39,867 nt of DNA from Chlorobiaceae bacterium (lineage in GTDB: Bacteria; Bacteroidota; Ignavibacteria; Ignavibacteriales; Ignavibacteriaceae): positions 1 through 39,867 of the forward strand of contig PNNF01000020.1 in NCBI GenBank assembly GCA_013824085.1. Reading direction: 5' to 3'. Under the pieces are notes generated by a model. The model ran no database searches, was not told the DNA's origin, and worked only from the letters and a program-made list of their open reading frames with translations. This document shows, piece by piece, positions 15,064 through 29,176 of this stretch. Numbering within the stretch: the stretch's first letter is position 1; each line of letters opens with the position of its first letter. The translations under genes were made by a program, and so were the position numbers.

Positions 15064-15996
15064 ATGTTTAATTTTATTTTTAACGAAAATTTTTTGCTTC
15101 ACAAATCAACTTTTTCACACGTGGAAAATCCTGACAGAATGACTGCGATATTAAGTGGAATTGAAAAAGATGAACTTTTAAAAAGTAAATTGAATTTTAT
15201 TCCTTCAGGAAAAGCAACTGATGAAAATATTTTATTGGCTCACTCAGAAGCTCATTATGAAAATGTAAAAAATAAAATTGATGCTGGTGTAACTATGCTT
15301 GATGACGGCGACACCTACGCTTGTCAAGATTCGTTCGATGTTGCATTAACCGCAGTTGGTTCTGTATTAAAAGGCGTAGATGACGCTATTCAAAATAAAA
15401 ATAATTCATTCTGTGCAGTGCGTCCACCTGGGCACCACGCTGAGAGTAATAAAGCTATGGGATTCTGCATCTTCTCTAATGTAGCTGTTGGTGCTAAATA
15501 TGCTCTTGAGAAATATAAATTGGATCGAATCGCAATCTTTGATTGGGATGTGCATCATGGAAATGGAACTCAAGAAATATTTTATGATAGCAATAAAATT
15601 TTATTCACCTCAATACAACAACATCCACTTTGGCCAGGGACAGGAATGGCGAACGAACGCGGAATTGGTAAAGGAGAAAATTACACTCTCAATTTTCCAG
15701 TACCGCCAGCAACTGATGGAAAAATTTATTTAAGTCTTCTACGCGAAAAAATTATTCCTGCGTTTCATAATTTTAGTCCTGACTTAATTTTTATTTCAGC
15801 GGGCTTTGATGCTCATAAAGATGATCCAATTAGTGAAATTAATTTGATTGAAAATGATTATTCTGAAATGACAAAATATCTACGCGATATTGCTGAACAT
15901 AAAAATATTCAAATAATTTCTGTACTTGAAGGCGGTTATAATTTGGACGCGCTTAGTAATTCTGTAAACTCTCACTTGCGAGTATTAGCCGAATGA
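15064..15996 (+). CDS. Histone deacetylase-like amidohydrolase
   Basis: Cytoplasmic zinc amidohydrolase of the arginase/deacetylase superfamily, related to bacterial class II HDAC-like and acetylpolyamine deacetylases. Signatures: RPPGHHAES at 120-128 (the tandem His pair), MGFCIFSNVAVGA, the zinc-binding DWDVHHGNGT at 160-169, and SAGFDAHKDDP with the last Asp ligand. The 310-residue length is normal. The natural substrate (acetylated protein, polyamine or small molecule) cannot be told from sequence. The stop overlaps the start of the next gene by 4 bp, indicating one operon with translational coupling. No clear ribosome-binding site precedes the ATG, and the gene begins just after the AbiE island. 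Confidence 0.88.
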   Translation: MFNFIFNENFLLHKSTFSHVENPDRMTAILSGIEKDELLKSKLNFIPSGKATDENILLAHSEAHYENVKNKIDAGVTMLDDGDTYACQDSFDVALTAVGSVLKGVDDAIQNKNNSFCAVRPPGHHAESNKAMGFCIFSNVAVGAKYALEKYKLDRIAIFDWDVHHGNGTQEIFYDSNKILFTSIQQHPLWPGTGMANERGIGKGENYTLNFPVPPATDGKIYLSLLREKIIPAFHNFSPDLIFISAGFDAHKDDPISEINLIENDYSEMTKYLRDIAEHKNIQIISVLEGGYNLDALSNSVNSHLRVLAE

Positions 15997-16823
15997 CAAA
16001 ATATTTTTCGTATAAAAAAATAAGAATAAATTATAAAGTCTGTGGAAATCTCGAAGACAAAAATAAAACTACACTTCTATTTGTTCACGGGTTTTCAAAT
16101 TCACTTAGCGACTGGAACGAAGTCATTAGTCTGATCAATGAAAAATATAACTGCATTGCAATTGACTTACCCGGCTTTGGCAAGAGTGACTCTCCTATTG
16201 AAATAAAATATTATTCACAAGATTTTTTAGTTGAGCTGTTACAAAAATTTATCTCATCTCTTAAACTCAAGAATATCATTCCAGTCGGATACTCGATGGG
16301 AGGCAGAATAGTACTCTCTTATGTTGTTAAATATCACTCGAAGGTAAAGGGTATTATTCTGGAAAGTTCTACTGCGGGAATAATTTCAGAGACAGAAAGA
16401 ATTGCAAGAACACACAGTGATTATCGCTTAGCAAAATTTATTGAGTCACATCCAATTGAAGATTTTGTGCAGCGATGGGTTAATATTGATTTATTTGAAT
16501 CACAAAAAAGATTAGATGAATCTAAACTAAACCATCTTCGTCAAGAAAAACTTTTATTAAACAAAGTTGGATTAATAAACTCTTTGATTGGTTTTAGCAC
16601 TGGTGTTATGAGCCCATTGTGGGATGAACTTCCTAATATTAAAATCCCTGTTTTATTAATTTCTGGCAAACTTGATAAAAAATTTATTAGTGTAAATCAA
16701 AAAATGAAATTAGTTTTTTATAACGCAACTCTCAGGGAGATTGATAATTGTGGTCACAACACACATCTCGAAAAACCTGAAGAGTTTGTAAAAATTCTAA
16801 ATGAGTTTTTGGAAACATTTTGA
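15993..16823 (+). CDS. menH: Alpha/beta hydrolase, probably MenH
   Basis: A 276-residue alpha/beta hydrolase. The oxyanion region is FVHGFSNSLSDW, the nucleophile elbow is VGYSMGGR (Ser101), and the catalytic His lies in DNCGHNTHLEKPEEF. The lid region is close to MenH (SHCHC synthase of menaquinone synthesis): SETERIARTHSDYRLAKFIE, WVNIDLFESQKRL and GFSTGVMSPLWDELP all have counterparts there. MenH removes pyruvate from SEPHCHC to give SHCHC. No other men gene is in the window, so the specific call rests on these motifs; a general hydrolase is the alternative. Start overlaps the previous gene by 4 bp (ATGA). Confidence 0.7.
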   Translation: MTKYFSYKKIRINYKVCGNLEDKNKTTLLFVHGFSNSLSDWNEVISLINEKYNCIAIDLPGFGKSDSPIEIKYYSQDFLVELLQKFISSLKLKNIIPVGYSMGGRIVLSYVVKYHSKVKGIILESSTAGIISETERIARTHSDYRLAKFIESHPIEDFVQRWVNIDLFESQKRLDESKLNHLRQEKLLLNKVGLINSLIGFSTGVMSPLWDELPNIKIPVLLISGKLDKKFISVNQKMKLVFYNATLREIDNCGHNTHLEKPEEFVKILNEFLETF

Positions 16824-16906: not shown

Positions 16907-17743
16907 TTATTTCGCCGTTTTTCCTAAAATTGTTTTTCCATCAAGAGAATATTCAGTACTATTTTTTAGTATTCCTTTTTCATAAACATCTAAGAACCAG
17001 AGAGTTCCATCTTTGCGATAAATTTTTGTTTCACCATCAAGTAACTCTTTACTATAATTTTGCACTGTCCAAAGCGAACCATCTTCATAAAAAGATTTAG
17101 AAATTCCGTTTAGATTTCCTCGTGAGTAAGACAATTCATTTTTTATCTTTCCATTTTCATGAAATATTTTGTGAATTTTTTCGGCGTAATTATTTTCAAA
17201 ATATTTTTCTGCTTTTAGATTTCCGTTTTCAAAATAATCTTTAGCAACGCCATGCACTCCACCTTCAAAATAATTATACTCGCCTTTTAGTTTTCCACTT
17301 TCGAAATAAAATAAAGACAAGCCATGTGGTTCATCATTCTTAAATTCAGCTTTCGATTTTAATTTTCCATTTGAGAAGTAGTCATAACCTATTCCAGTTT
17401 TTTTTCCATTTGACAATTGATATATAGATTTTAATTCTCCCCTTTCATAAAATGTTCTGTATTCTCCTTCTATCATTCCATTTTCATAAGTTCCAGTTTC
17501 AGATAAAACTCCATTCGGATGATAAATTGCAAACTCACCATTTAGAATTCCGTTTTCAAAAATAAATTTTTCTTTTAAGATTCCTGATGGAGAAAAATAA
17601 AAAACATTGCCATGAAGTTTTCCATTGCTGTAATTTAGAATTTCTTTAATGACTTTGTTTTCGTAGAAGTTTTTTACTTCACCACTCTGTGCATAATGAT
17701 TGAATTGAACCAAGATTAACAATGCTAAAATTATACTTTTCAT
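16907..17743 (-). CDS. YwqK-family MORN-variant repeat protein, shorter paralogue
   Basis: A 278-residue exported repeat protein: a signal peptide (about residues 1-19, ending YAQSG) followed by about ten 24-residue repeats of the form [FY]-x-x-x-G-x-L-K-x-E-x-x-[FY]-x-x-G-x-x-x-G, the MORN_2/YwqK pattern. Such repeats form beta-hairpin solenoids. Databases often label them 'YwqK family antitoxin' after a Bacillus protein, but no toxin is encoded beside it and the signal peptide places it outside the cytoplasm, so that name should not be read as function. It lies 7 bp downstream of a longer paralogue, and AGGA precedes the ATG. Role unknown; surface binding or envelope scaffold is a guess. 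Confidence 0.8.
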   Translation of the reverse strand: MKSIILALLILVQFNHYAQSGEVKNFYENKVIKEILNYSNGKLHGNVFYFSPSGILKEKFIFENGILNGEFAIYHPNGVLSETGTYENGMIEGEYRTFYERGELKSIYQLSNGKKTGIGYDYFSNGKLKSKAEFKNDEPHGLSLFYFESGKLKGEYNYFEGGVHGVAKDYFENGNLKAEKYFENNYAEKIHKIFHENGKIKNELSYSRGNLNGISKSFYEDGSLWTVQNYSKELLDGETKIYRKDGTLWFLDVYEKGILKNSTEYSLDGKTILGKTAK

Positions 17744-17750
17744 AACTATC

Positions 17751-19067
17751 CTAATTATATCCGTAAAGTGAAATTAAATTTCCGTTCTGGTCAAATTCTT
17801 TTTTTGTAACTAATTCATTTCTTCTGTAAAATGCTTCCAATTTAATTTTTCCATCTTCAAAATATTCATACACATAGCCCTCAAGTCCACCTTCATAATA
17901 TTTTTCTCTTTTTCTTAATTGTGAATTTCTGAAAAAATATTTTTTTTCTCCACTTAACAATCCATCTCTATAATTTGCTTCTGACTCGAGAAAACCATTG
18001 TCAAAAAACATTTTACTACTACCGACTAAAACATCATCAATAAAATTTTCTGATGCTTGAATGTTTCCATTTCTGTGATACGAAATTGAGATTCCATTTT
18101 TTTTATTGTCGAGATACATCGTCGCTGATTTGATATTTCCATCATCATAATAAAAAGTTGTAAGACCATTTTTAACATCATTAAAAAAAGTAATTTCAGA
18201 TTCAATAATTCCATTCTCAAAAAATGTTGAAGTTTTTCTTTCTAATTTTCCATCGACAAAAAACTCTTCTTTTTTTAGTAATCCATTCTCGTGAAAAATT
18301 TTTCTTCTGCCTTCCATAACTCCATCACGAGTAAAATATTCTTCTTCAATTATTCCTGATTCATCATAAGTTCTTTCAAATTTTTCGCGAGTTTCAAATT
18401 TTCCCAAGTAATTAAATCTCTCTCTATTCACCAACTCGCCATTGATATAATAATCTTTCACACGAATATATTTTGATGCATCAAAAAAAAAGACTTCCCC
18501 ACTTAATTTGTCATTTACGAAATTAGCTTCAACAGCCACAACTCCATTTTCATGATAGACGAAAGCGGCGCCATTCATTTTCCCATCATGAAAAGTTCGC
18601 ACAACTTCTGGCTTTCCATTTTCATAAAAAATAATTGACTTCCCATTGAGTTCGCCATTGACGTAGAGCCACTCTCCTTGAAGCTCACCTGTTTTATAAA
18701 ATGTTTTTGTTATGCCTTCTAACAATCCTAAAATATATTTTTGTTCAGACCAAAGCTCGCCCGATTCATAATACCATTTTGCAATTCCATCTTTCAAACC
18801 ATTTACGTAGTTCCACTCTATACTTAGCAAACCGTCTTCAAAAAACCAACGTGATGCACCTTCCTCTTTTCCATTAACGAAATTCCACTCTTTCCAAACT
18901 TGTCCATTGATGTAATACTCTTTAAAAATACCGTTCAACTTTCCATCAACATAAGTTCCTTCAGTTTTTAATTGACCCGTCGGGAAATAAGATTTCCTTA
19001 CTTCAATTTCTTGAGGAAACAGAACTATACTAAGTAGAAGCGTGAAGGAAAAAAAATATTTTAACAT
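17751..19067 (-). CDS. YwqK-family MORN-variant repeat protein, longer paralogue
   Basis: A 438-residue protein with a signal peptide (about residues 1-19) and roughly seventeen tandem repeats of about 24 residues; YYINGQVWKEWNFVNGKEEG shows the type. One repeat near residue 200 (FDASKYIRVKDYYINGE) is irregular and followed by a longer insert, dividing the solenoid into two blocks. It is first in a two-gene unit with the shorter paralogue and probably arose with it by duplication. AGGAA is seven bases before the ATG. No T9SS sorting domain, lipobox or transmembrane segment is present, so the mature protein is probably periplasmic or released. No enzymatic motif is visible. Confidence 0.8.
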   Translation of the reverse strand: MLKYFFSFTLLLSIVLFPQEIEVRKSYFPTGQLKTEGTYVDGKLNGIFKEYYINGQVWKEWNFVNGKEEGASRWFFEDGLLSIEWNYVNGLKDGIAKWYYESGELWSEQKYILGLLEGITKTFYKTGELQGEWLYVNGELNGKSIIFYENGKPEVVRTFHDGKMNGAAFVYHENGVVAVEANFVNDKLSGEVFFFDASKYIRVKDYYINGELVNRERFNYLGKFETREKFERTYDESGIIEEEYFTRDGVMEGRRKIFHENGLLKKEEFFVDGKLERKTSTFFENGIIESEITFFNDVKNGLTTFYYDDGNIKSATMYLDNKKNGISISYHRNGNIQASENFIDDVLVGSSKMFFDNGFLESEANYRDGLLSGEKKYFFRNSQLRKREKYYEGGLEGYVYEYFEDGKIKLEAFYRRNELVTKKEFDQNGNLISLYGYN

Positions 19068-19244: not shown

Positions 19245-20723
19245 TTATTTTAACAGAATCATTTTTTTTGTTTCGAAAAAGTTATTTGAACTTAATTTAT
19301 AAAGATAAAGTCCCGATGATAATTTATCAGCATTAAATTCAACTTCATAATTCCCTGCTTGCTTTGTTTCATTCACTAAAATTGCAACTTCATTTCCAAG
19401 TGCATCATAAATTTTTAAAGAGACATGAATTGATTCGACACTACGAGAAGCAGATGGGATAGAAAATTTTATTTTAGTTGTTGCGTTGAAAGGATTAGGA
19501 TAGTTCTGATGAAGATAAAAATTATTGATCGAAGTTTCATCTTTTATATCAGAAGTTGTTGGTCTAAATTTCCAAACTTTTCCGTCGAAGCCCAAAATAT
19601 AAAGTTCATTATTTTGATCAACACCGAAAGATGAAATTCCGAATCCCGAATTATTTAGAACTACTTCATTTCGAGTTGGATTTATTCCATCATAAGTCAA
19701 AGCCCAAATTCTTCTACTCACATAATCGCCGTAGATATATTTACCAACAAGTTCGGGCACATCTCTACCACGATAAACAAATCCACCTGTAATTGAATAA
19801 CCACCAGCGGCATTGTGTCCATAAACAAAAATCGGAAGTGTTAAGCCAGATGTATCGCAGTTAGAAGGAGGATTGAAGCACTCGAAACCTTCCATGATTC
19901 TCCAACCATAATTTTTTCCTTTTTCGATAATAGAAATTTCTTCCCATTTACTTTGTCCAACATCTCCCGTCCACAAAAAATTTGTTACAGGATCAAAACT
20001 AAATCTCCAAGGATTTCTCAATCCCCAAGCATAAATTTCTTCACTCCAATTTTGTGTATTATTTACGAAAGGATTATCAACAGGGATTGAATAATTTATT
20101 CCCATTCGAGTTCGATCAACATCAATTCTCAAAATCTTTCCCAAAAGATTTCCTCTATTTTGCGAATTGTTTTGCGGGTCGCCTGCAGAACCACCATCGC
20201 CAGTTGCGATATAAAGAAATCCATCTCGCCCAAATGTTATTTGCCCACCGTTATGATTTGCAAAAGGTTGATTAAACTGAAGTATTATAAACTCGCTTGA
20301 TTTTATTGCTGAATCTGGGTTTGATTGACTTACAGTAAATCGTGAAATGACTGAGCGGCGTGGAGATGGTGCAGAATAGTAAACATAAAAAAATCCGTTT
20401 TGCGAATAGTTCGGATGAAATGCTAAACCAAGCAATCCTTCTTCACCTCCAAAAGTTAGACGATCAGAAATATTTAAAAATTGCTTTGCAGTTGCAACCT
20501 GTTTTTGATTTGGAAAAACCCAAATTATTCCTCCTTGTGCAACTACAAAAATTCTATTCGTTCCATCATTTGGAGATTGGAAATCAACAGGCCACGAAAA
20601 ATTGAGATTCGGAAATGCTTGTTCAATGCTAAACGATTGACTTTTGCTTTGATGAGAAAAAATAAATAGCATAACAAATATTACTACGCTTACACTTCGC
20701 CCATAACAATTAATCATTCTCAT
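19245..20723 (-). CDS. Secreted glucose/sorbosone dehydrogenase-like protein with T9SS tail
   Basis: A 492-residue exported protein with a six-bladed beta-propeller of the GSDH family (PQQ-dependent sugar dehydrogenases). After a signal peptide (to about residue 29) come FVVAQGGIIWVF, GGEEGLLGLAFHPNY, the catalytic His region NHNGGQITFGRDGFLYIATG, GNLLGKILRIDVD, YAWGLRNPWRFSFDP and GKNYGWRIMEGFECF. The last ~85 residues form a type A T9SS sorting domain (NYPNPFN, IYDALGNEV, SSGLYLYKLS), so the product should cross the outer membrane by the type IX system. Whether PQQ is used is unknown. It starts 6 bp after the stop of the GH13-like gene and is likely translationally coupled to it; a weak AGAG is the only upstream purine patch. 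Confidence 0.88.
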   Translation of the reverse strand: MRMINCYGRSVSVVIFVMLFIFSHQSKSQSFSIEQAFPNLNFSWPVDFQSPNDGTNRIFVVAQGGIIWVFPNQKQVATAKQFLNISDRLTFGGEEGLLGLAFHPNYSQNGFFYVYYSAPSPRRSVISRFTVSQSNPDSAIKSSEFIILQFNQPFANHNGGQITFGRDGFLYIATGDGGSAGDPQNNSQNRGNLLGKILRIDVDRTRMGINYSIPVDNPFVNNTQNWSEEIYAWGLRNPWRFSFDPVTNFLWTGDVGQSKWEEISIIEKGKNYGWRIMEGFECFNPPSNCDTSGLTLPIFVYGHNAAGGYSITGGFVYRGRDVPELVGKYIYGDYVSRRIWALTYDGINPTRNEVVLNNSGFGISSFGVDQNNELYILGFDGKVWKFRPTTSDIKDETSINNFYLHQNYPNPFNATTKIKFSIPSASRSVESIHVSLKIYDALGNEVAILVNETKQAGNYEVEFNADKLSSGLYLYKLSSNNFFETKKMILLK

Positions 20724-20729
20724 TTTAGT

Positions 20730-23700
20730 TTACTCTTTGGTTTTGTTTTCAGATTCTTCTTTTTTCTTCTTCTCAGCTTTTTCTAATTTTTTATTTTTCT
20801 TAATTTTTTTTTCTTCCAGTTTTTTTTCTTTTTTTAATTTTTTCTTTTCTTCTTTCTTCTTCTCTTTTTTGAGTTTCTTCTCTTCTTTTTTTTCGCCTTT
20901 AGTTTTCTTTTCCCCTTTAATTACAGCTTCTTCTTCTGAATTAAAATCTTTCTCTTTGTTTTTTTTCTTTTTCTCTTTTTTCATCTTATCCTCCAAGGGT
21001 TTTTTGTTTAGATCTTCGGGCATTGTTTTTATCTCTAATTCATCAGCATTTGAAACAGAAAGTAAAGTGGTGGCTGCTTCAACTGTATAAATAGATTGTG
21101 CTTTTATAAAATCATCAAATCGATAATCAGCTTTCTTGGCGGAATCTATAAATGTATTTATTATTTTTTCAAGTTGATTTACTTCTTCTAAAAATTCTCC
21201 ATCTTCTATCTTTAGATTAATCGCATCTTCCCAACTACGAATAAATTCAATTGTGAAATTCCAATTCAGTAGCAACTCAAAATTTTCTTTATTAAAATAT
21301 TTTATTCCACCATAAGAATTAAAACCAATAAAGTCTTTCACTAATTCACTCTCAAACATTTCTAATAGCGAATTTTCAGTAACACTCTTGTCTAACTCTA
21401 CTTTTGATTTCAGAAATAAACTTTTTGCTGAAGCAAGTAATTTCATTAAATCAAATTCTTGCTTTAATACTTTGTAATTATTTCCTAAGTGTAACAAGCT
21501 TTGCCAAATCGGTCTTTCCAGAAGCAGAGATTCATATAATTGAACTGAGGTTTCTTGTTGTTCAATTTTATAAATTTCTGCGAGTAGTCTTTTGATAACA
21601 ATATAAATCAAGATTAGTTCATTATTTGGATTTTCATTATTTGTTGAATCATAAACAAGAAATTTTTTAATTTCATCATCAAGTGTATTCTGAAGAAAAT
21701 CTTTATGCTCAACGAAATATGAATTCAATTCTCTAAAATGTATCAGATCATTTTCCAAAGCCAACAAAACATCTGATGCGTTAAAATTTAATCCTTTAAC
21801 ATTTTTTATTTCGTTAATCACAGGAATTAATTTCATCTTAACATAATAGGAGAGCGACAATTCTTCAGATGCGGGAAGACGCAATCCACAAAAAGATTTT
21901 AACTCATCAATTACAGATTTATTAAATAATTCTGTGAGTGAATTGTGCAAAGGCGAAAGCTTCATTTCCTTTAGTGCAAAATGAATTGAATTAACACCGT
22001 TATTATTTATCTGAAGATAAAGTTTTTTTATCTCGCCATTAAAATCATAGAACTCCTCAAAACCAAAAAACACTTGATACTGATAACCATTCAGTTGAGT
22101 TAGAAATCCCTGTTCACACAACTCTTTTCCGTTTTTTAGATATTCAAGTTTTGTCCGATGATCTTTTAGAACATAAAAATATTTTTCGTCATTCTTAATC
22201 TGAAGTGCGTCAGTTATTTGCTGGCTATTAAATTCCTTCTTATCACAATTTTCAAATCCCGCAAGAATTTTACCCGAAGAATATTTTATATAACCATGCG
22301 TTGCAGCATAACTGTTGTTATAAATAACCAAAACTTTTTCATCTTTTGCTCGATTAGTAAAAGCAAAAACATTTTGATTCACTTCTCCGTTTGATTCAAT
22401 AAAATCATATAGTTCAAAATTTTCTACTTGACTAAAGACATGTCGTTTTTTCAACAATGGAAAAATTTCTGCTTCGTGCCGCTTGACTAAATTGTTATCT
22501 ACAGTTTCATTGTAATAAGCCCGCTGATATTCCATTCCATATTTTTCAGTGAAACCTTCAACTTGTCCGTGAGCCAACATTGGCAAGCCTGGAAGCGTAA
22601 CCATCATAACTGCGATACCAAAATATTTATCACCTTTTCCAAATTGATTAACAGCAGTTTCTTCATCGGGATTGCTCATAAAATTTACATAGCGTTTCAA
22701 TATTTCAGGATTGAACTCAATCGTATTTTTTATCAACTCTCTATACTTTTGGTTTTCTTCTTTCATAAACATGTGCATAAAAGCAGAGTTATAAACTCGG
22801 TGCATTCCTAAAGTGCGTACGAAAAAACCTTCCATAAGCCAAAAAGCTTCAGCGAGTAGAAGTGTATTTGGCATTTCTGAATTTATTCTATCAACTACTT
22901 CACGCCAAAACTCATTTGGCATAATAGAATCAAACTGATCACGCGTCATCGCATAATCTGCACGCGAAGGAATTGCTCCACCTAAACCGGGCTGCGGAAA
23001 CCAGAGCCGCGAAAAATGTTTTTTTGCTAGCGTCATTGCTGCATCAAATCTGATTATCGGAGTTTTCTTCGCAACATGCATAATCGTCTGAATTATTGCT
23101 TCTCTAACTTCTTGCTTAAGTAAGTTGAGTTGAGCCGTATCGTTCCACGGCATGTTTGTTCCATCATTGCCGTGATAAATGTAGCGAGTTATTCCTGAAT
23201 TATTTTCAATCATCTGAAACACAACCGCTGCATCGCTCTTTGTATAATACTTATCTTCAATCCGAATTTGATATTGAGGATGATCTGATAAATTGGGTCC
23301 AGTGTAAGAATAATTTGGGAACGGCGGATTTTCCGATTGAATAAAAAATTCGGGATGTTCTAAAATCCATTTTGAATAAATGCCAGTATGATTAGGAACC
23401 ATGTCTGATGATAATCGTATTCCCCTTTGCCAACATCTATATTTTAGTTTTTGAAAAGCTTCATCGCCACCAAGCTTAAAGGCAACTTCATAATCATAGA
23501 GTGAATATGCTGAAGAAGCTGCGTCAGGATTTCCACAAAATTGTTTTATTTTTTTTGACGCACTACTTCGCTCCCAAAGCCCAATTAACCAGAGCGCGGT
23601 AATATTCCAAGAAACGAGTAAATCAAGTTCTTCATCGGGAATATTATCTAACGATGTAATTTCTCGCTCATATTTTTTTGATAGCTGATCCATCCAAACA

Positions 23701-24674
23701 AAAATATTTTTTGCGATCATTACTACATTCGGCATCCACTCAATGTCTTCAGTAAATTTTTCATATTCCAAGTAGCTTAAATTAATTTCATCAATGTCAC
23801 TTAATTTTTTTCCGGCTGCCAATGCTAACTTAATATTTTCAATTTCTTCTTTACTGAGTGCAAATTTATAACTCGGTACAGGTGGAGTTCCAAATCCGCC
23901 GTGAGCCAAAAATAATTTTACATCTTCTTTTATTAAATCAGTTCCGCCTAAAATTCTTTGCAAAAATTTCTCGTCGAGAATAACTCCCCATTTGAATCTC
24001 AAATAATTTAATTGCTCTTCTATGTTCAATGGATTTGCAAGAATTGGCACTCGCAATGATTTCAACAATGATGAGCCTTCAAGCGAAAATGGTTTTTCTT
24101 GTTCAAAAAATATTTCAGAATGGATTAGAAAATTATTATACGCTGTTGATTTAGCTAAAGGCGTTTCGTCAAATAATTCTTTTAATGAGTTGAATGCAGG
24201 ATTAATATTTTCAAGGTGAAGCAAAATTAATTCTTCAATAATAATTTCTTTATTAAATTTTTCTTCAGTGTATCCTGTTAAGTATTCATCAACAGTTATT
24301 TCACCCTTGTAAACAGCCAACGGAGGGAAGTTTTTCACATACTCTTTTAGAAGAATATTTAATTCCTTCTCTCCAAGTTCCTGAGTAAAATAATTTATAC
24401 TTCTTTCAAAAACGCCGGGATTTTCATTTACTTCATAATGTCGAATAATGAAATGAAATATTTCATGAATCAAAGCGAGGGAATTAATTTGTCCAGGAGT
24501 GGTAAAGTTTGTCTCTTCATTAAAAGCTCTTCTCGTCTCATTTATTTTTTGTGAAAGCAAACGAGCGTTCTGAAAATCAGCTACAATCAAGTCACCGTTA
24601 ATTGAAAATAACGAATGATCAAACTGATATTTCTGTCTTGTTGAAATTGAAACGTGAAACTCAAACTTTTTCAT
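20730..24674 (-). CDS. Giant GH13-like alpha-amylase-family protein with extra N-domain and Lys/Glu tail
   Basis: A 1314-residue protein, far longer than typical alpha-amylases. The GH13 barrel is recognised by DMVPNHTG (424-431, region I), IIRFDAAMTLA (540-550, nucleophile Asp544), LLLAEAFW (605-612, acid/base Glu609) and FMSNPDEETA (665-674, region IV; Asp670 is kept but the usual His before it is Pro). TLPGLPMLAHGQVEG follows. The ~330 residues before the barrel match nothing I know; they contain HEIFH (70-74), a zinc-protease-like HExxH. After the barrel comes a long helical region, then about 95 residues almost entirely Lys and Glu. No signal peptide, so probably cytoplasmic; glycogen or other alpha-glucan is the guessed substrate. 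CGGAG precedes the ATG. Confidence 0.82.
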   Translation of the reverse strand: MKKFEFHVSISTRQKYQFDHSLFSINGDLIVADFQNARLLSQKINETRRAFNEETNFTTPGQINSLALIHEIFHFIIRHYEVNENPGVFERSINYFTQELGEKELNILLKEYVKNFPPLAVYKGEITVDEYLTGYTEEKFNKEIIIEELILLHLENINPAFNSLKELFDETPLAKSTAYNNFLIHSEIFFEQEKPFSLEGSSLLKSLRVPILANPLNIEEQLNYLRFKWGVILDEKFLQRILGGTDLIKEDVKLFLAHGGFGTPPVPSYKFALSKEEIENIKLALAAGKKLSDIDEINLSYLEYEKFTEDIEWMPNVVMIAKNIFVWMDQLSKKYEREITSLDNIPDEELDLLVSWNITALWLIGLWERSSASKKIKQFCGNPDAASSAYSLYDYEVAFKLGGDEAFQKLKYRCWQRGIRLSSDMVPNHTGIYSKWILEHPEFFIQSENPPFPNYSYTGPNLSDHPQYQIRIEDKYYTKSDAAVVFQMIENNSGITRYIYHGNDGTNMPWNDTAQLNLLKQEVREAIIQTIMHVAKKTPIIRFDAAMTLAKKHFSRLWFPQPGLGGAIPSRADYAMTRDQFDSIMPNEFWREVVDRINSEMPNTLLLAEAFWLMEGFFVRTLGMHRVYNSAFMHMFMKEENQKYRELIKNTIEFNPEILKRYVNFMSNPDEETAVNQFGKGDKYFGIAVMMVTLPGLPMLAHGQVEGFTEKYGMEYQRAYYNETVDNNLVKRHEAEIFPLLKKRHVFSQVENFELYDFIESNGEVNQNVFAFTNRAKDEKVLVIYNNSYAATHGYIKYSSGKILAGFENCDKKEFNSQQITDALQIKNDEKYFYVLKDHRTKLEYLKNGKELCEQGFLTQLNGYQYQVFFGFEEFYDFNGEIKKLYLQINNNGVNSIHFALKEMKLSPLHNSLTELFNKSVIDELKSFCGLRLPASEELSLSYYVKMKLIPVINEIKNVKGLNFNASDVLLALENDLIHFRELNSYFVEHKDFLQNTLDDEIKKFLVYDSTNNENPNNELILIYIVIKRLLAEIYKIEQQETSVQLYESLLLERPIWQSLLHLGNNYKVLKQEFDLMKLLASAKSLFLKSKVELDKSVTENSLLEMFESELVKDFIGFNSYGGIKYFNKENFELLLNWNFTIEFIRSWEDAINLKIEDGEFLEEVNQLEKIINTFIDSAKKADYRFDDFIKAQSIYTVEAATTLLSVSNADELEIKTMPEDLNKKPLEDKMKKEKKKKNKEKDFNSEEEAVIKGEKKTKGEKKEEKKLKKEKKKEEKKKLKKEKKLEEKKIKKNKKLEKAEKKKKEESENKTKE

Positions 24675-26322: not shown

Positions 26323-26566
26323 TGTCAAATTCTTTACTAAATAAATTGAAATTAAATGTCGAACTTTTTAAAAACAAAGTTAAGGAAATTAGAGTTGGAT
26401 TAATTGTGTGATAAAATATAATTCCCTATGAAAATTAATATTCAGCACCTGACTTAACTATTACTCAGAATCCAATTTTTAAAAATTAGATTTCTTTTTT
26501 GCCACAAATTTAGATTTGATGTTAGGATTGGTTAAGGTAAATTTGTGAGCTAATTATGAAGTGAAT

Positions 26567-29176
26567 ATGCAAACACCGCTAATGAATCAATTTTCTAAAA
26601 TTAAGGAATCTTATCCCGATACGCTTCTGCTTTTTCGTGTTGGAGATTTCTACGAGACTTTTGAAGAAGACGCAAAAACTGCCTCAAAAGTTTTAGGAAT
26701 TACTTTGACTAAAAGAGCCAATGGCGCAGCAGGAGAAGTCCCTCTGGCGGGATTTCCTTATCACGCAATAGATACTTATTTGCCAAAGTTAGTAAGGGCA
26801 GGACTCCGAGTAGCAATTTGTGAACAAACTGAAAATCCCAAATTAGCTAAAGGACTTGTAAAGAGAGAAGTCGTTGAAATCGTTACACCGGGTGTTGCTT
26901 TCACTGACAAAATATTAGACCATAAAAAAAATAATTTTCTACTCGCTTTCACTGTAACAGAAAATATTCTTGGTGTCTCCTTCTGCGATATTACTACAGG
27001 CGAGTTTCAAGTATATGAAACAACTATAAACGCAGTTAAACAACAGATAGAATTAATAAATCCATCAGAAATATTAATTGCAAAAAAGCATAAAGATTTT
27101 TTTGCTACTCACTTCAATAACATAAACGAAACGATTAGAATTACGAAGCTCGATGATTGGGTTTTCAATTATGAGTATGCGAATGATATTTTGCTTAATC
27201 ATTTTAAGACCAAAAATTTTAAAGGCTTTGGAATTGAACAACTGCAAACAGGTTTGATCTCTGCTGGAGCTGTCTTTCATTATTTAAGTGAGACTCAAAA
27301 ATCTAATCTTAGTCACATAAATAAAATTTCGCGTTATAATTCTTCTGATTATATGATTCTCGATTTCGCTACAAAAAGAAATCTTGAAATAATTTTTTCG
27401 ATGCTCGATGGAACGCACGATGGCTCACTCTATTCAATACTTGATAGCACAGAAACATCAATGGGCGCAAGATTATTGAAGCGTTGGGTTTCAACTCCAT
27501 TAATAAAACTTCAACCAATTTTAGCACGACAAAATGCTGTCGATTTTTTATTTCATAGAAAAGATTTAAGAAGAAAAATTTCTGAAGAGTTAAAAGAGAT
27601 TGGAGATCTTGAAAGAATTATTTCTAAAATTTGTACGGGCAGAGCAAATCCACGCGAATTAATTGCATTAAAATCATCGCTAAATAAAATTCCGATAATA
27701 AAATCTTTACTCAATGATTCATCACAACAATTGTTAATTGAAATAAAAGAGAAACTTCTCACACTCGAAAATATTGTTGAAAAGATTGATAAATCAATTG
27801 TTGACCATCCTCCATTAAGTCTTACTGATGGCGGAGTAATAAAAAATGGCTTGAGCATTGAACTCGATGAGCTTAGAAATATTTCTATCAATGGAAAAGA
27901 TTGGATTGCACAGCTTCAAAAAAACGAAAGAGAGAAATCGGGAATTTCTTCTCTCAAAGTTAGCTACAACAAAGTTTTCGGTTATTATATCGAAATCAGT
28001 CACGCCAACAAAGATAAAGTTCCATCAGATTACATACGCAAGCAAACGCTTGTCAATTCTGAACGATTTATCACTCCCGAACTAAAAGTGTATGAAGATA
28101 AAATCTTAAATGCTGAAGAAAAAATTTATGATCTTGAATCACAATTATTTAATGAACTCCGACTTGAAGTTGCTTCGTATGCTGAATCGATTCAGTTAAA
28201 TGCTAAATTGATTGCAACACTTGATTGTGTAAATTCATTTGCACAAACCGCTGAAAGAAATAATTACACAAAGCCGGAAGTAAACGACTCAACTGATATT
28301 ATTATTCAAGATGGAAGACATCCCGTTGTCGAAAAAATTCTTCCGCCTTCTGAAAAATTCACAACGAACAGTTGCAAGTTGAACAATGACGCGATTCAAA
28401 TTGTTGTATTAACAGGACCGAATATGGCGGGAAAATCTGTTTATCTGCGTCAAATTGGATTGATTGTTTTGCTTGCACAGATTGGTTCTTTTGTTCCCGC
28501 TAAGTCAGCAACCATTGGAGTTGTTGATCGCATTTTTACTCGTGTCGGCGCAAGCGATAATATCACAAGTGGTGAAAGTACTTTTCTTGTTGAGATGCAA
28601 GAAGCAGCAAACATAATTAACAACGCTACTCCAAAAAGTTTAATTTTGCTCGACGAGGTTGGAAGAGGAACAAGCACATTTGACGGGCTTTCCATAGCTT
28701 GGGCAATTACAGAATATTTACATGAAAATCCGAGTTTAGCAGCTAAAACACTCTTTGCAACTCACTATCATGAACTGAATGAAATGGCTTCTATCTTTCC
28801 GCGAATAAAAAATTATAAAGTTGAAGTTCGTGAATATGGTGACAAAGTGATATTTTTGCACAAAGTTACTCCGGGCTTTGCAGATCATAGTTATGGAATT
28901 CAAGTTGCGCAAATGGCGGGCTTGCCTAAATTCATTACAGACAGAGCAAAAGAAATTTTACAAAATCTTGAAAGTAAAGAGTTGACTCCTTATGAAATTA
29001 AGAAAGAAAAACTTGCTAAAATGAGGAATCAAACTATTGGTCAATTAAGTTTGTTTGAATTTAAGGATGATCAGTTGCGAAGTGAAATAAAAGATATTGA
29101 AGTTGAAAATATTACTCCAATGGAAGCTTTAATTAAATTGAATGAATTAAAAAATAAAATTAGTGATGAGAAATGA
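26567..29176 (+). CDS. mutS: DNA mismatch repair protein MutS
   Basis: Cytoplasmic ATPase that recognises base mismatches and recruits MutL. The mismatch-reading FYE (residues 28-30, in VGDFYETF) is intact, as are Walker A TGPNMAGKS (about 617-625), Walker B LILLDEVGRGTSTFDGLS and the ATHYHEL switch. GQLSLF near residue 826 fits the QxxLF motif for binding the sliding clamp. The length of about 869 residues is normal for full-length MutS. GTG at 26561 is an alternative start two codons upstream; ATG 26567 is preferred, with little Shine-Dalgarno support for either. The stop overlaps the next gene by 4 bp. No mutL is in the window. Confidence 0.95.
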   Translation: MQTPLMNQFSKIKESYPDTLLLFRVGDFYETFEEDAKTASKVLGITLTKRANGAAGEVPLAGFPYHAIDTYLPKLVRAGLRVAICEQTENPKLAKGLVKREVVEIVTPGVAFTDKILDHKKNNFLLAFTVTENILGVSFCDITTGEFQVYETTINAVKQQIELINPSEILIAKKHKDFFATHFNNINETIRITKLDDWVFNYEYANDILLNHFKTKNFKGFGIEQLQTGLISAGAVFHYLSETQKSNLSHINKISRYNSSDYMILDFATKRNLEIIFSMLDGTHDGSLYSILDSTETSMGARLLKRWVSTPLIKLQPILARQNAVDFLFHRKDLRRKISEELKEIGDLERIISKICTGRANPRELIALKSSLNKIPIIKSLLNDSSQQLLIEIKEKLLTLENIVEKIDKSIVDHPPLSLTDGGVIKNGLSIELDELRNISINGKDWIAQLQKNEREKSGISSLKVSYNKVFGYYIEISHANKDKVPSDYIRKQTLVNSERFITPELKVYEDKILNAEEKIYDLESQLFNELRLEVASYAESIQLNAKLIATLDCVNSFAQTAERNNYTKPEVNDSTDIIIQDGRHPVVEKILPPSEKFTTNSCKLNNDAIQIVVLTGPNMAGKSVYLRQIGLIVLLAQIGSFVPAKSATIGVVDRIFTRVGASDNITSGESTFLVEMQEAANIINNATPKSLILLDEVGRGTSTFDGLSIAWAITEYLHENPSLAAKTLFATHYHELNEMASIFPRIKNYKVEVREYGDKVIFLHKVTPGFADHSYGIQVAQMAGLPKFITDRAKEILQNLESKELTPYEIKKEKLAKMRNQTIGQLSLFEFKDDQLRSEIKDIEVENITPMEALIKLNELKNKISDEK

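Follow-up and report, generated by a model that had tools for sequence, protein, structure and literature searches.

A GH13 protein of an Ignavibacteria contig joins a helical domain of unrecognized fold, with a candidate polar site, to an alpha-amylase-type barrel

Does a zinc-protease-like motif in front of a glycosidase barrel mark a protease joined to a carbohydrate-active enzyme? This question is raised by a 1314-amino-acid protein encoded on the minus strand of contig PNNF01000020.1 (Chlorobiaceae bacterium, GenBank assembly GCA_013824085.1), of which positions 1 to 39,867 were analyzed and are called the window throughout. A first-pass annotation, made from the letters of the DNA alone, had placed about 330 residues of unrecognized sequence, containing HEIFH at residues 70-74, ahead of a glycoside hydrolase family 13 (GH13) barrel, and had regarded the pairing as unusual. 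We favor a different answer, to which we give a probability of about 0.55. The protein would be an intracellular GH13 enzyme acting on alpha-glucans, and its N-terminal part would be no protease, being an accessory or regulatory domain of unrecognized helical fold that holds a coupled polar site. What is real and unexplained is the presence of this domain and its site on a GH13 barrel that is otherwise intact but whose region IV is unusual. The gene and the features of its N-terminal domain (N-domain) are located as follows.

20730..24674, minus strand: whole gene for the GH13 protein with the helical N-domain (open reading frame (ORF) of 1314 amino acids, ATG start; Pfam)
23910..24674, minus strand: helical N-domain, residues 1-255 (AlphaFold2 (AF2) model, Foldseek against the PDB, Pfam)
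24453..24467, minus strand: HEIFH, residues 70-74; across the family, mostly [DHE]-E-x-x-H
24231..24236, minus strand: E147-E148, with E148 a candidate further ligand and the top co-loss partner of H74 by Fisher test
24201..24203, minus strand: N158, conserved in 200 of 202 aligned sequences (rows)
24012..24014, minus strand: Q221, conserved in 202 of 202 rows
23925..23927, minus strand: E250, conserved in 202 of 202 rows
23760..23909, minus strand: low-confidence linker, residues 256-305 (in the full model, the blocks between 251 and 310 have a predicted local distance difference test (pLDDT) score of about 45-60)

The AF2 model of residues 1-330, computed from 82 rows, has a pLDDT of 90.6. 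It is helical, and its only strands are two of three residues each. HEIFH falls inside predicted helix 60-84, in agreement with the helical context proposed for it earlier. The description of the N-terminal sequence as unrecognized also held up, as no convincing match was obtained in Pfam, the PDB or a viral library. Specifically, Foldseek returned no PDB match to the N-domain model at E<=1e-3 (best E 0.52), and a second look with VIA gave a best Z of 3.9 (root-mean-square deviation (rmsd) 4.7, 120 aligned) to a designed protein and nothing at Z>=5. The viral library yielded nothing at E<=1e-3, its best E of 0.21 being noise. When the N-terminal parts of 82 members were compared with Pfam, only scattered weak rows appeared, the best at E 0.0074 and each from no more than two members, and PDB sequences gave no match up to E 10. 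No metallopeptidase is present among the matches listed, which comprise the best 50 of 291 for Foldseek and 20 entries for VIA and therefore do not rule one out.

Three candidates from these comparisons were set aside. The 14-3-3 proteins at the top of the Foldseek list (E 0.52, TM 0.15) are noise. A di-iron protein built on ExxH was rejected, with one ExxH conserved and with the best hint, the "iron binding protein" 6n63 (Z 3.2, rmsd 4.8, 98 aligned), in the noise range, as is the metal phosphodiesterase 3g3n (Z 2.2, rmsd 5.9, 139 aligned). We consider the modeled fold to be unrecognized by the tools used, and do not claim that it is novel.

An HExxH sequence can arise by chance. Its expected number, calculated from composition, is 0.055 in the whole protein and 0.014 in the first 330 residues. 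A scan of 28 ORFs in the window (11,229 amino acids; 29 of at least 120 amino acids are listed, and one opposite another gene was omitted) found HEIFH alone. Because a lone HExxH is weak evidence, it is conservation and not the motif by itself that makes the site real. Two sets of relatives were used to judge this conservation, namely 129 rows (126 with residues at the motif) and 202 rows whose N-domains are less than 97% identical. HExxH, DExxH, EExxH and NExxH account for 50, 66, 6 and 1 of the 126 rows, respectively, and the motif is lost in 3; the larger set has 66 HExxH, 104 DExxH and 7 EExxH. At position 70, 123 of 126 and 190 of 202 rows carry H, D or E, the latter with D in 114, H in 66 and E in 10, plus gaps in 2.

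The proposed check, conservation of the HExxH residues in orthologues, therefore gives a divided result. His70 is kept in only 66 of 202 rows, whereas E71 (190) and H74 (181) are widely retained, as are E147 (177) and E148 (190). The label "zinc-protease-like" is not supported by these counts or by the helical domain. A further ligand had also been sought, and E148 is a plausible acidic partner judging from its conservation and its joint loss with H74. On a barrel tree of 81 rows, position 70 changed at least seven times between H and D or E, and the starred clade that includes the window protein has H in 26 of 26 rows. All 66 rows with His70 retain the full HExxH, which speaks for a functional site in the lineages concerned. 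We base nothing on the covariation between position 70 and other columns of the N-domain, which was left uncorrected for kinship.

An indication that these residues belong together comes from their joint losses. Among 169 rows, H74 is lost in 17, and this loss was compared by Fisher test with losses at 45 other near-conserved N-domain positions. E148 ranks first, with 10 of its 12 losses coinciding with loss of H74 (3.0e-10), and position 70 ranks second (9 of 10, 9.3e-10). The order then continues with L152, E71 (7 of 10 losses coincide), H7, 67, 166, R48 and E147. The losses of other positions do not follow those of H74, including R38 (1 of 15), D246 (0 of 8) and F116 (0 of 7). We interpret residue 70, E71, H74 and E148 as one coupled polar site, probably binding a metal or another ligand, that has been lost in some lineages. 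In all 17 rows that lack H74, the N-domain residues N158, Q221 and E250 and the barrel residues D544, E609 and the NPD of region IV are kept, and the coupled site thus looks dispensable for the barrel.

The second half of the argument concerns the barrel itself, for which the following features were located.

22050..23759, minus strand: GH13 barrel and C-terminal beta domain, residues 306-875 (VIA-align to 1bvz; Pfam PF00128)
23388..23405, minus strand: region I, DMVPNH, residues 424-429 (row alignments)
23043..23045, minus strand: D544 of region II, putative catalytic nucleophile by family analogy (129 of 129 and 169 of 169 rows)
22848..22850, minus strand: E609 of region III, putative catalytic acid/base by family analogy (129 of 129 and 169 of 169 rows)
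22665..22673, minus strand: N668-P669-D670 of region IV, with Pro replacing His (129 of 129 and 169 of 169 rows)

Pfam matches the Alpha-amylase family (PF00128) to residues 348-735 (E 2.6e-9; 37.3 bits against a cut-off of 22), and its scan of the protein up to E 0.1 gave only one further row, below its own cut-off. NCBIfam gives GH13-type matches only, all below cut-off, the best being NF041321 (alpha-amylase MalA). The model of residues 306-875 aligns with 1bvz (TVAII; VIA-align Z 26.9, rmsd 3.6, 404 aligned), 2wc7 (NPDE; Z 26.7, rmsd 3.6, 405 aligned) and the GlgE structure 5cim (Z 23.8, rmsd 4.2, 399 aligned), and many GH13 structures lie within a few Z units of the top scores. D544, E609 and D670 are invariant in both the 129 and the 169 rows, and the Arg of region II and the His of region I are invariant in all 129. 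The protein thus has the family sequence match, the TIM barrel with C-terminal beta domain, and the Asp/Glu/Asp set of GH13. The first reading of the barrel, with its Asp nucleophile and Glu acid/base kept and Pro in place of the usual region IV His, proved accurate and extends to every row, region IV being NPD where NHD is usual. A passage in a published account (PMC11239784) gives NHD at the close of region IV as typical of most GH13 subfamilies, and hence as not strictly defining.

The combination of N-domain and barrel is an established architecture of a widespread family and not an odd fusion, because among 302 Chloroflexota genomes the N-domain profile matched 54, and in 53 of these it shares a long frame (827-1677 amino acids) with a GH13 part. 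The join that was considered unusual is therefore the usual form of the family. The exceptions were both short: a piece in genome G440, in a frame of 102 amino acids, and a second piece in genome G542, in a frame of 53 amino acids. At E<=1e-40, 98 of the 294 genomes sampled from the window's class have the gene, as do 56 of 301 genomes of a Chloroflexota draw centered on G298 (Chloroflexi bacterium AL-N1) and 6 of 151 genomes drawn around an Abditibacteriaceae record. A contig collection contributed the best 80 of 212 confirmed relatives, most of them labelled Ignavibacteria or Bacteroidetes. The source genome carries one copy of the gene and one distant GH13 match (L002). The portion beyond the barrel consists of two parts.

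21090..22037, minus strand: helical C-terminal extension, residues 880-1195, containing a conserved motif around 1119-1138; some relatives have a short version
20733..21017, minus strand: Lys/Glu-rich tail, residues 1220-1314, about 95 residues (composition of row ends)

Lys and Glu make up more than half of the last 90 residues in 3 of 129 rows, including that of the window, some rows stopping at contig ends. No hydrophobic start resembling a signal peptide was seen in the window protein when judged by eye, without a signal-peptide program.

These observations can be assembled into a working model. By analogy with the family, the barrel would most likely cleave or transfer alpha-glucan chains by the usual retaining double-displacement mechanism, in which D544 serves as nucleophile, E609 as acid/base and D670 as transition-state stabilizer, with Pro standing where region IV normally has His. 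The helical domain of about 255 residues in front may serve the barrel as an accessory or regulatory module and not as a protease, and the protein would act in the cytoplasm. Within this domain, the [DHE]-E-x-x-H helix and E148, perhaps with E147, R48 and H7, might form the one coupled polar site. The swaps among ligand-type residues at position 70, together with the joint losses, suggest that this site could bind a metal ion or a small ligand. The site appears to have been given up in some lineages, which keep the catalytic residues and the near-invariant N158, Q221 and E250.

Several observations weigh against this model. The Fisher test takes no account of kinship, and with H74 as the reference it gives p<0.05 for 27 of the 45 positions, so a general relaxation of divergent lineages contributes to the co-loss. 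The hydrophobic positions 152, 67 and 166 are among the first seven Fisher ranks. Starred branches provide only seven independent pairs, with same versus opposite outcomes of 3.3 and 0.1 for position 148 and 4.1 and 0.0 for position 70; the median p of the pair sign test is 0.25 and 0.125, respectively, which is not significant. We take this result as suggestive of one coupled site, not as proof. In addition, 15 rows have H74 but have lost E147, which is therefore not needed for the site. Among the papers listed, titles and abstract openings of literature on GH13, GlgE, conserved sequence region (CSR) IV, GH57-DUF3536, Ignavibacteria and Melioribacter mention no assayed member and no metal evidence.

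Gene context weighs on both sides. Neighbors were clustered at 120 loci, comprising the 80 contig-collection loci (many with short flanks) and 40 drawn regions, of which 38 had a called gene for the GH13 protein; at least four places occur in both sets. The glycogen synthase gene glgA is next or next but one at only 8 of the 120 loci, or 6 distinct places (L186, L188, L189 (= L100), L193, L190 (= L095) and L068). NCBIfam named glgA for L095/L190 and L186, and similarity did so for the others. In the Abditibacteriaceae phylum, glgA takes such a position in 4 (L186, L188, L189 and L193) of 5 drawn loci of 6 matches, the exception being L187. Co-occurrence is uninformative on a glycogen role because glgA is near-universal, being found in 281 of 294 class genomes, and because, of the 13 genomes in which glgA had no match, 5 carry the GH13 gene. 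Instead of glgA, an exported sugar-dehydrogenase-like neighbor is found at 11 of 80 loci (best 80 of 212), downstream on the same strand at a distance of 0-383 bases. The window has this arrangement.

19245..20723, minus strand: glucose/sorbosone-dehydrogenase-like gene with a type IX secretion system (T9SS) sorting tail, next downstream, 6 bases past the GH13 stop codon

The pairing of an exported sugar dehydrogenase with a glucan enzyme that lacks a signal peptide is unexplained. A GH57-DUF3536 gene is located within three genes at 6 of 40 drawn loci (L159, L164, L168, L170, L175 and L180; named by Pfam for L175 and by similarity elsewhere). Overall, we lean toward a role in carbohydrate metabolism from these contexts, which do not fix the pathway.

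The alternative that survives best is that the coupled site is purely structural, a salt-bridge cluster of acids with His (or Arg or Lys) that steadies the helical bundle and binds no ligand. Two relatives (L182 and L266) read DEREE at positions 70, 71, 74, 147 and 148, and Arg in place of H74 would fit a salt bridge. However, several polar residues are strongly conserved although the top residue has a mean frequency of only 0.52 across the domain, and position 70 is recurrently exchanged among H, D and E, both of which are more typical of a ligand site. We therefore regard this explanation as a serious competitor that is nonetheless unlikely.

A second alternative concerns the barrel and is rather doubtful. 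The GH13 part could be a GlgE-like maltosyl or glucosyl transferase or phosphorylase of glycogen synthesis, with the region IV Pro marking its chemistry. Four GlgE-domain proteins fetched from class relatives all have NTPD in region IV, glgA is nearby in some genomes, and at L193 a GlgX-like gene below the TIGR02100 cut-off is also found two genes away. However, the sequence kinship to GlgE is remote (hhalign probability 6), and the GlgE N-terminal domain GlgE_dom_N_S (PF11896) was found neither in the window protein (searched up to E 0.1) nor in its genome (up to E 0.001). The nearest relative found is L002, a plain GH13 protein in a 492-residue frame that keeps NHD (hhalign probability 99.8, E 9.6e-29, 455 aligned columns). 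Because GlgE is remote while this close relative has NHD, the Pro was probably gained independently of GlgE. The parallel is a lead on chemistry and not on family membership.

A more ambitious version of the preferred model is similarly speculative. Here the N-domain would be a new kind of helical domain that depends on a metal for catalysis or sensing, with [DHE]ExxH...E as its site. It would be obligately tied to a GH13 barrel whose -1 subsite chemistry is altered, and in several phyla a single polypeptide would link the sensing of a metal or ligand, or else a second reaction, to the synthesis or turnover of alpha-glucan.

It is improbable that the protein as a whole is catalytically inactive and serves as a GH13 scaffold or binds glucan. 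The lost region IV His, the large multi-domain form and the lack of any assay in the literature found would be compatible with this role, but all three acids of the catalytic set, as well as Arg in region II and His in region I, are invariant in 129 of 129 rows. Least probable is an active, divergent gluzincin-like zinc metallopeptidase with ligands at 70, 74 and 148 and E71 as base, joined to the glycosidase, since the intact HExxH of the window's clade and of every His70 row, and the leading co-loss rank of E148 on a separate helix, are outweighed by an Asp for the first His in most relatives, a helical domain nearly devoid of strands, and no significant PDB match of any kind. Exchange of His70 and the helical fold led us to reject it as the principal explanation.

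Other features near this gene and its relatives were recorded as side observations. At L165, L171, L176, L182, L183 and L185 (L182 and related Chloroflexota), short-form relatives and a histidine kinase gene are arranged head to head, and an M29 aminopeptidase gene is close to these. In the window, mutS (26561-29176, plus strand) is upstream of the GH13 gene on the other strand with one gene between, and it is within 5.6 kb of the GH13 gene, mostly divergent, at 21 of 80 loci (best 80 of 212). Two adjoining MORN-variant repeat proteins are encoded at 16907-19067 on the minus strand. A histone-deacetylase-domain gene (15064-15996, plus strand) overlaps a MenH-like hydrolase gene (15993-16823) by four bases.

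Binding of a metal or metabolite at the coupled site, if it occurs, would represent a new way to control an alpha-glucan enzyme. Pfam and NCBIfam match the window protein through its barrel only, and the family is widespread yet has no characterized member in the literature searched. In excerpts of the Melioribacter roseus genome paper (PMC3534657), several amylases are given by gene number, and a member of this family may be among them. The locus also provides a lesson, in that an HExxH taken from a single sequence can mislead when the family motif is mostly [DHE]ExxH.

Four known systems help to place the protein. Gluzincin metallopeptidases carry HExxH in a helix and a conserved Glu further on. 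The window N-domain shares both, but the family differs from gluzincins in that the first His is mostly Asp and the helical domain has no recognized relative. Neopullulanase-type GH13 enzymes (1bvz and 2wc7) give the highest structural scores for the barrel, at 17-18% identity over its length and with no matched N-domain. GlgE, the GH13_3 maltosyltransferase, resembles the window protein in its barrel fold and in having Pro for the region IV His (NTPD), but has a different N-terminal domain (PF11896) and only remote sequence kinship. The L002-type GH13 protein shares the GH13 core, and NF041321 is the NCBIfam match of L002, far below the cut-off, as well as the best row of the window protein; L002 lacks the N-domain and the C-terminal extension and has NHD, whereas the window protein has both parts and NPD.

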